Under the pieces are notes generated by a model that was given only the letters and a program-made list of their open reading frames with translations, did not search any database and was not told where the DNA came from. This document shows positions 18,252 to 20,575 of a DNA stretch of 60,841 nt, one piece after another; within the stretch, counting starts at the first letter, position 1; every line of letters begins with the position of its first letter. The stretch covers positions 1,701,501-1,762,341 of the forward strand of contig LS998015.1 in assembly GCA_900498245.1 (NCBI GenBank), given 5' to 3'. Made by a program: the position numbers and the translations under genes. Origin of the DNA: Candidatus Zixiibacteriota bacterium (GTDB lineage Bacteria; Zixibacteria; MSB-5A5; GN15; PGXB01).

Positions 18252-19685
18252 TCACTTAAGCAAATTTCTGAGAAAGGAGATCATATCGGGGCGCTTGATG
18301 GTAGTCTGGATATTTTCGGCCCTCAGCCATTCCTCTCGATCCGAAAGACCACGCGCAATTTCGGCACCAGCCCGTAGATCCTTTATGGTTACCATACCGG
18401 ATTCGAATTCATCTGAGCCAGCGATGACTGCCAATGGAATGCCGACGCGATCGGCATACTTCAGCTGTTTATTAAGGTTTTTGGTTTCACCGAGAAACAA
18501 TTCGGCGTTGATCCCGGCGGCCCGGATTTCATTGACGATGGCGATATAGTCATTCAGGCGGCTTTTATCCATAGTGGTAACAAGGACATCGGAGGTGGCC
18601 CTCCGAAGCGTTATCGCCCTGAGTTCGATGAGGGCGGCCAGCATCCGGTCCACCCCGAAAGATGAGCCGGTGGCGGGAACCGATTTATTCGAAAATCTTT
18701 CGATAAGATTATCATAGCGACCCCCGGAAAAGACGGAACCATAATCCGGCAGGTCAAGGAGGGTCGTTTCATAGACCGGACCGGTATAATATCCGAGTCC
18801 GCGGACAATGGTTAAATCGACCTTAGTCTTGTCATCAGGCACTTGCATTTCATTTAAATAATTTTGCACTTCGCGCAGTTCATCGATGCCGGAACGCGCG
18901 ATTTCAATCTTATCCAAGACTTTTTCTGCTTCGTCCAGGGAGTCATTTCGATGGGATGCGGCAATGTTTAGGAAATCAAGAACGGTTTCAATCTGCCCAT
19001 TTTCCAGGTTAAGTCCGGGAATCCTGTCGCCCGATTTGTCAATCCGTCCCGGCCCCAGTTCCAGCCGAACCGCTTCCTCGCCCTGTTTTTCCAGTTTATC
19101 AATGACTCGAAAGACATCTGTCACTTTATCCGCGGGAATGGCGGCATGCTGGGCCAGTCCATTGAGAATTTTTCGATTGGAATATTTTACTATGAAGTTT
19201 TTGATGCCCAATTCGGACATAACTTCAACCATTACGGCAATGATTTCGGCGTCGGCCAGCATCGACGACGTTCCGACCATGTCGAAATCGCACTGCATGA
19301 ATTCGCGATAGCGGCCGGGACCCGGTTTGTCGACCCGCCAGACGGTACCGTATTGATAGCGCCGAAAGGGAAGGGCCAATTCCGGATTGCCGGCGACATA
19401 ACGGGCGAGAGAAACGGTGAATTCGTACCGGAGGGCCATATCGACTTCATCGGGGCCGTGAAAGCCAAACAGTTCCTTGAGATTATCGGAGGTATAATCT
19501 CCGCCGAGAAGAGTTTCGGCATATTCGAGAGCCGGAGTCTGGAGCGGCAGAAAACCGTGCCGTTCGTAGATCCGACGGGCGGTTTCGATCAATTTCTGGC
19601 GGGCGATTTCCTCTTCAGGCGGGTAATCGCGAAATCCTTTGAGAACCTTCGGTTCGACTTTTTTCAGTAATCTCTTTTCAGCCAT
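18252..19685 (-). CDS. hisS: histidyl-tRNA synthetase, divergent motif 2 type
   Basis: 477 residues, class II synthetase. Motif 1 region: KGFRDYPPEEEIARQK. Motif 2 loop at residues 116-131 reads WRVDKPGPGRYREFMQ followed by CDFDMVG. The histidine-specific RGLGYYTGPVYE and the motif 3 region GSSFGVDRM are present, then an anticodon-binding domain with a canonical-looking fold. The motif 2 loop lacks the glutamine and basic residues of the E. coli type (RHERPQKGRYRQF) that read G-1/C73; it resembles the loop of divergent alphaproteobacterial and eukaryotic HisRS. The gene lies 87 bases downstream of a tRNA-His that lacks those identity bases. Confidence 0.95.
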   Translation of the reverse strand: MAEKRLLKKVEPKVLKGFRDYPPEEEIARQKLIETARRIYERHGFLPLQTPALEYAETLLGGDYTSDNLKELFGFHGPDEVDMALRYEFTVSLARYVAGNPELALPFRRYQYGTVWRVDKPGPGRYREFMQCDFDMVGTSSMLADAEIIAVMVEVMSELGIKNFIVKYSNRKILNGLAQHAAIPADKVTDVFRVIDKLEKQGEEAVRLELGPGRIDKSGDRIPGLNLENGQIETVLDFLNIAASHRNDSLDEAEKVLDKIEIARSGIDELREVQNYLNEMQVPDDKTKVDLTIVRGLGYYTGPVYETTLLDLPDYGSVFSGGRYDNLIERFSNKSVPATGSSFGVDRMLAALIELRAITLRRATSDVLVTTMDKSRLNDYIAIVNEIRAAGINAELFLGETKNLNKQLKYADRVGIPLAVIAGSDEFESGMVTIKDLRAGAEIARGLSDREEWLRAENIQTTIKRPDMISFLRNLLK

Positions 19686-19772
19686 AGCATTTTGCCATAA
19701 TTCAAACGGTCAATTTAAGGAATTTTAAAAAAGATGAAAGTATTATTTGGATGGAGGAATGCAAAAATAAAG

Positions 19773-19847
19773 TACTGGGGGGGAGAGTCGAACTCCCGAC
19801 CTCCTGATCCACAGTCAGGCGCTCTATACCAACTGAGCTACCCCAGC
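19773..19847 (-). tRNA. tRNA-His (anticodon GUG) without encoded G-1, with G1-U72 and A73
   Basis: The 75-base cloverleaf runs from G1 (complement of 19847) to A73 (complement of 19773). Acceptor GCTGGGG pairs with CCCCAGT, so the terminal pair is G1-U72. The anticodon arm CCTGA-CTGTGGA-TCAGG gives GUG. The base before G1 is T, so G-1 is not encoded, and the discriminator is A instead of the near-universal C73. CCA is not encoded. It is upstream of hisS on the same strand with no terminator between. Confidence 0.95.
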
Positions 19848-19863: not shown

Positions 19864-19892
19864 ATTTTAATCTTTATCGGTGGCAAAGTCAA
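19864..19892 (-). promoter_or_regulatory. promoter for tRNA-His and probably hisS
   Basis: On the - strand TTGACT (19892-19887), 17 bases, TAAAAT (19869-19864), each five of six. Predicted start near 19857, about 10 bases before G1. Confidence 0.7.
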
Positions 19893-19967: not shown

Positions 19968-19996
19968 TTGACATTTGGCAATCGATTGCATATAAT
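19968..19996 (+). promoter_or_regulatory. perfect-consensus sigma-70 promoter for the HD-MFS-PHP genes
   Basis: TTGACA at 19968-19973, exactly 17 bases, TATAAT at 19991-19996. Predicted start near 20003; AGGAG at 20013-20017 and ATG at 20027 follow. Confidence 0.85.
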
Positions 19997-20026: not shown

Positions 20027-20575
20027 ATGATCGATAGAGCAGCCGCGCTGGCCCTGATGGAAGGGAAGATCGAAAACAAAAATCTTCGCAAGCACATTCT
20101 GGCGGTCGAGGCCGGGATGATTCGCCTGGCGGAGCATTTCGGCGAGGATAAAAATATCTGGGGTTTGACCGGGCTGCTCCATGATTTGGACTATAATGTT
20201 ACTGCCGACAAACCGGAGAAGCATACTTTTATCACGGAAGATTGGCTTCGAGAATATGATCTGCCGGCGGAGATGATTTATGCCATTCGCTGTCATCCGG
20301 GCCACGCCGAATGCAAATCGCGGCTCGATTGGGGACTTTACACGACCGATCCGACCACCGGATTCCTGGTGGCCTGTGCGCTGATGCATCCGTCGAAAAG
20401 ATTGGAAAATATAGATACCGAATTTATGCTGCGCCGCTTCAAGGAAAAACGGTTCGCGGCCGGGGCGACCAGGGAAAATATGGCGGCCTGTGTCAATCTG
20501 GGCCTGGAATTGCCGGAGTTCCTGGGACTTATCAGGGATGGAATGTTAACCATTTCGGACATATTGGAAATTTGA
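20027..20575 (+). CDS. HD-domain hydrolase
   Basis: 182 residues. The metal-binding HD dyad is in GLLHDLDYN (about residue 51), with an upstream His (LRKHILAVEAGM) and downstream His residues in EKHTF and RCHPGHAE, the usual HD-domain order. Such proteins are metal-dependent phosphohydrolases on nucleotides or similar compounds. First gene of a run led by a perfect-consensus promoter; its stop overlaps the TTG start of the transporter. Confidence 0.85.
   Translation: MIDRAAALALMEGKIENKNLRKHILAVEAGMIRLAEHFGEDKNIWGLTGLLHDLDYNVTADKPEKHTFITEDWLREYDLPAEMIYAIRCHPGHAECKSRLDWGLYTTDPTTGFLVACALMHPSKRLENIDTEFMLRRFKEKRFAAGATRENMAACVNLGLELPEFLGLIRDGMLTISDILEI

Follow-up and report, generated by a model that had tools for sequence, protein, structure and literature searches.

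A tRNA-His gene that encodes neither G-1 nor C73 was identified, together with an adjoining gene for histidyl-tRNA synthetase (HisRS), in the genome of a bacterium of the phylum Zixibacteria (Candidatus Zixiibacteriota), and the two very probably form a co-adapted pair that works without G-1, can be transferred and is not confined to alphaproteobacteria. The kind of system is already known; what is new is its host range, the linkage of its genes and its likely origin. G-1 is among the most nearly universal features of tRNAs. Its loss in bacteria has been taken as a single event in one alphaproteobacterial clade (PMC3937112), with either a eukaryotic HisRS or convergence invoked as the cause (PMC5370408), and a partial literature search, which is weak evidence, found no bacterial report of such a tRNA-His outside alphaproteobacteria. 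The initial annotation had proposed an alphaproteobacteria-like tRNA-His in a diderm of the FCB type; the host is indeed a member of Zixibacteria, and its HisRS carries the same change in motif 2 as the alphaproteobacterial enzymes. That proposal understated the case: hisS lies directly downstream, the pair occurs in many phyla, and the alphaproteobacteria make up just one branch within a larger family.

The window analyzed here is a stretch of 60,841 nucleotides, and the features of the locus are listed in Table 1. ARAGORN calls a tRNA-His(GTG) at 19772–19847 on the minus strand, and the same gene scores 70.8 bits with RF00005; both agree with the sequence itself on the features first annotated, namely the absence of G-1 and C73 and the presence of G1:U72 and A73, and the annotated span of 19773–19847 is exactly the predicted mature molecule (positions 1–73). 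On the minus strand the gene reads ...aattcgaU(-1) GCTGGGG TA ... CTGTGGA ... CCCCAGT A(73) CTT, in which the acceptor stem is GCTGGGG/CCCCAGT, the first pair is G1 (19847):U72 (19774), the discriminator is A73 (19773), and CTT follows A73, CCA being absent from the gene. Thus, where a canonical tRNA-His has an encoded G-1 and C73, this gene has U-1 and A73, and it shares the lack of an encoded G-1, the G1:U72 pair and A73 with the tRNA-His of the RRCH alphaproteobacteria. A single transcript for tRNA-His and hisS is plausible, since a promoter-like site precedes the tRNA gene and no terminator-like site was detected by consensus matching on the minus strand between the two genes. Nearby, a perfect sigma-70 consensus (TTGACA-17-TATAAT) is present at 19968–19996 on the plus strand, about 30 bases before an ORF at 20027–20575.

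Table 1. Features of the tRNA-His–hisS locus, in window coordinates
Feature	Position	Strand	Basis
hisS, histidyl-tRNA synthetase, 477 aa	18252..19685	minus	TIGR00442 (381.6 bits); ORF
HisRS motif-2 loop KPGPGR, residues 120–125	19311..19328	minus	alignments
Spacer between tRNA-His and hisS, 87 bp	19686..19772	minus	sequence
tRNA-His (GTG), anticodon 19810–19812	19773..19847	minus	ARAGORN, RF00005, reading of the ends
Base -1 of the tRNA-His precursor: U, not G	19848	minus	sequence
Promoter-like TTGACT-17-TAAAAT, 16 bases upstream of tRNA-His	19864..19892	minus	consensus match only

The hisS gene, which starts 87 bp downstream of tRNA-His on the same strand, is the sole HisRS match above the cut-off in the window genome. 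The motif-2 loop of its product is VDKPGPGRYREF, as against the canonical RPQ(K/A)GR, and Gly122 occupies the position of the canonical Gln (RPQKGR), so that the enzyme has the Gly for Gln of the RRCH type; the KPGPGR loop is shared with alphaproteobacteria of the Rhizobiales, Rhodobacterales and Caulobacterales. A 2014 paper that regarded the trait as likely of single origin in bacteria reports that this Gln interacts with the G-1:C73 pair and describes its replacement by Gly as unique to RRCH alphaproteobacteria (PMC3937112). The claimed uniqueness of the motif-2 Gly to the alphaproteobacterial clade fails. According to a review, Caulobacter HisRS charges its tRNA in vitro by U72, A73 and the anticodon (PMC9976931), and the Consotaella enzyme acts on G1:U72/A73 in vivo (PMC7590224). 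A charging mechanism like that of Caulobacter and Consotaella is most likely here, because the tRNA end and the motif-2 loop are the same. Cleavage of the precursor by RNase P would be expected at the usual +1 position, given the lack of a G-1:C73 pair and the preference for U at -1; CCA would then be added enzymatically, and the neighboring HisRS, with its KPGPGR loop, is expected to read the G1:U72/A73 end and the GUG anticodon. Orthogonality to the canonical G-1:C73 system is expected of such a tandem pair, which could therefore replace a resident pair only as a whole.

The two genome-wide searches suggested by the initial annotation, for another tRNA-His and for a Thg1-like enzyme, yielded neither. 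The window genome is a single contig of 3.5 Mb (98.9% complete), and its 44 RF00005 matches include one tRNA with a GTG anticodon, the tRNA-His of the window, and no second, canonical tRNA-His; as in RRCH alphaproteobacteria, a sole tRNA-His is thus found with a sole HisRS. The Thg1 family (PF04446), which gives one match in the control Methanosarcina acetivorans, matched nothing in 132 Zixibacteria genomes, the window genome included. This result bears on the suggestion that G-1 is added after transcription, or that RNase P retains the -1 base as N-1 opposite A73 (U-1:A73). Such a process might account for the strong enrichment of U at -1 (89 of 105 non-canonical tRNA-His genes vs. 17 of 42 other tRNAs of the window genome; Fisher p=3e-7, the rows not being independent), and a Bacillus Thg1-like protein adds U-1 in yeast (PMC6471195). 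The enrichment would fit RNase P cleavage at +1 as well, however, and C, A or G occupies -1 in 16 of the 105 genes; furthermore, in alphaproteobacteria with the same tRNA end, G-1 is absent from the gene and is not added later, and N-1 is trimmed off by RNase P (PMC6471195). An added or retained base is therefore considered very unlikely. The G1:U72/A73 end is also present on three Arg tRNAs, one CAT tRNA and Glu(CTC) of the window genome; hence, this end by itself cannot define His identity, and the anticodon must carry weight. At locus L031 (G000:C1:888640-888810), tRNA-Glu(CTC) has G1:U72 and A73, whereas tRNA-Glu(TTC) has G1:C72 and G73; unusual tRNA-Glu features are also known from RRCH alphaproteobacteria (PMC3937112).

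The phylum is identified by the HisRS of genome G027, which is identical to the one encoded by CP070674.1, a Zixiibacteriota chromosome. The distribution of the two tRNA-His types in the phylum was surveyed in the 132 genomes with a pattern that admits both, and the listing was counted by hand. A DNA query with the window's own tRNA misses canonical tRNA-His (the weak matches read were Ala and Arg tRNAs), hence the use of a pattern. It admits a single variable-loop length and demands Y60, and some genes escape it (e.g., those of G134 and G136). U72 was found in 81 genomes, with A73 in 79 and U73 in 2, and C72/C73 in 27 listed genomes; none of those listed has both types. The recurrence of the same end in about 80 related genomes, which answers the proposed survey of relatives, rules out both chance and an assembly error. 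Every canonical tRNA-His read in the phylum has G-1, G1:C72 and C73, and the HisRS type tracks the tRNA type in every genome checked, motif 2 being KP[GDA]PGR in the non-canonical genomes, while each of the 13 canonical HisRS read has Q at the site of the Gly. The non-canonical type occupies families f1–f4, f9, f10, f15 and f18 and one genome of f19. Within one genus, genome G128 is non-canonical and its congeners G126 and G127 are canonical; the tRNA-His of G128 is identical to that of G127 at 69% of positions and to that of a Bacteroidetes MAG at 90%.

Several loci in the phylum depart from this general picture. In two f18 genomes (L096 in G123, L138 in G124), a non-canonical HisRS accompanies a tRNA-His that has G1:U72 and U73 and is preceded by G at -1, possibly an intermediate or a third identity rule. 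Genome G020 carries two matching non-canonical tRNA-His copies, on contigs C2 and C10. In family f10, the tRNA-His–hisS pair at L311 (G094:C231) resembles the G128/G123 pair (HisRS 67–68%; tRNA 97% to G128) and not that of G095/G096, and it lies on a 4-kb contig, for which contamination is possible.

According to gene coordinates, 22 of the 81 non-canonical Zixibacteria genomes have tRNA-His directly upstream of hisS on the same strand, with 13 to about 200 bp between the two. This tandem is found in seven families (f1, f3, f9, f10, f15, f18 and f19) and is absent from the large family f2 of the window's own order; in the canonical genomes checked (G127, G114 and G010), tRNA-His and hisS are distant from each other. 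In other phyla, a same-strand tandem is present at seven loci (L192, L194, L196, L199, L209, L213 and L218), and the genes are divergent at L193; no tRNA-His was found near hisS in the alphaproteobacterial loci examined.

A HisRS-alignment scan covering 84,980 species, each represented by a single genome, in which genomes were picked by HisRS only, detected the same enzyme type, among the matches listed, in MAGs labeled Acidobacteriota, Planctomycetota, Hydrogenedentota, Stahlbacteria, Coatesbacteria, Bacteroidetes and Nitrospiraceae as well as in many RRCH alphaproteobacteria; MAGs, in part on short contigs, account for many of the records, and the phylum labels are those of the submitters. 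Exactly one HisRS above the NCBIfam cut-off was present in each of 30 genomes picked in this way. The picked genomes yielded tRNA-His genes with U72/A73, one exception with C1:G72/A73 (L218) and none of the canonical type; in a few, the pattern matched no tRNA-His. When non-tRNA-like matches were discarded by eye, the pattern placed the non-canonical type in at least about 14 of 396 Acidobacteriota and at least about 15 of 246 Planctomycetota. The exception, in a Planctomycetaceae MAG (L218:2293-2367), is a tandem tRNA-His with C1:G72 and A73 whose HisRS is sister to the alphaproteobacterial ones, and L283 and L285 (Planctomycetota) have tRNA-His genes with G at -1 yet G1:U72 and A73.

In the HisRS tree, all non-canonical enzymes fall into one clade (100/99), outside which lie the human, Nostoc, Bacteroidota and Firmicute HisRS and within which the alphaproteobacterial HisRS is nested; the branch order among the deep lineages is weakly supported. 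The window's order and most of f9 and f10 constitute one branch (100/99), separate from the alphaproteobacterial branch, whereas Zixibacteria of f15 sit in another branch (100/100), which also holds Planctomycetota, Coatesbacteria and alphaproteobacteria, and the HisRS of G123, G128 and G094 group with that of a Bacteroidetes MAG. In AU tests, for which the motif-2 loop was masked in all rows but L218, monophyly of all non-canonical Zixibacteria HisRS was rejected (p=7e-10), and from the tree we therefore infer at least three separate entries of the pair into the phylum. The initial annotation had offered an extended exception or transfer as alternatives; both hold, the HisRS trees pointing to several unrelated acquisitions. 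The pair would have been inherited within the window's order and have entered other Zixibacteria separately, its HisRS belonging to the same family as the alphaproteobacterial enzymes. An ancient G-1-less pair passed on vertically in bacteria, with patchiness due to differential loss and no transfer, would suit the deep branching of the HisRS and its presence in many phyla, but it is improbable in view of the rejected Zixibacteria clade, the sporadic occurrence in Acidobacteriota and Planctomycetota, and the difference between G128 and its congeners.

A eukaryotic origin of the alphaproteobacterial HisRS was also considered: its grouping with the human enzyme, the single eukaryotic sequence used (taken from PDB alignments), was rejected (AU p=0.0004), and a eukaryotic source is not favored by these sequence comparisons. 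Adaptation in situ, in which each lineage's own tRNA-His lost G-1 and C73 after the arrival of a new HisRS, is the scenario that Ardell and Andersson put forward for alphaproteobacteria, the new HisRS there being eukaryote-like (as cited in PMC3937112 and PMC5370408), and tRNAs are short, so that tRNA phylogeny is weak. Nevertheless, without the acceptor stem, the non-canonical tRNA bodies of Zixibacteria have a mean identity of 78% to those of other phyla and 73% to the canonical ones of Zixibacteria, although the canonical tRNAs compared are few; the tandem is found in several phyla, and the grouping with human HisRS fails, which together make local adaptation an unlikely account. Joint transfer is favored over local adaptation, because of the likeness of the tRNA bodies across phyla and the resemblance of the G128 tRNA-His to that of a Bacteroidetes MAG. 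Bacterial loss of G-1 thus appears to reflect a transferable tRNA–enzyme pair and several replacements of the standard pair. We lean toward the view that a self-contained cassette of tRNA-His and hisS, one that is orthogonal to the canonical pair, arose in a bacterial lineage outside alphaproteobacteria, reached at least seven phyla and repeatedly displaced the resident pair, including in the ancestor of Rhizobiales, Rhodobacterales and Caulobacterales.

The wide, patchy and linked pair offers a bacterial source for the G-1-less system and a route for exchanging an essential identity rule through the joint movement of the tRNA and its synthetase. If the cassette reading is true, such a rule has been replaced naturally and repeatedly by joint transfer. 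The difference between G126/G127 and G128 in one genus makes the swap directly testable, and the survey yields numerous new HisRS/tRNA-His pairs as candidates for orthogonal use in E. coli, in which Caulobacter HisRS is insufficiently active (PMC7590224).

Among known systems, the canonical bacterial tRNA-His (G-1:C73) with its RPQKGR HisRS, which is present in other Zixibacteria families, shares the GUG anticodon and a class II HisRS with the window pair and differs in the acceptor end, the motif-2 loop and the HisRS lineage. Eukaryotic tRNA-His, to which Thg1 adds G-1, has A73 in common with that of the window; in contrast, the window genome lacks Thg1, its tRNA has G1:U72, and human HisRS lies outside the clade. 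The tRNA-His of Trypanosoma and Acanthamoeba, likened here by description only, also functions with no G-1 (PMC6471195) and is eukaryotic. The closest counterpart is the RRCH alphaproteobacterial pair (Caulobacter, Sinorhizobium, Rhodobacterales and most SAR11), which has no G-1, G1:U72, A73, the motif-2 Gly for Gln, a single pair per genome and a HisRS of the same clade; tRNA-His is not near hisS in the RRCH loci examined, whereas the pair of the window resides in Zixibacteria and its genes adjoin.
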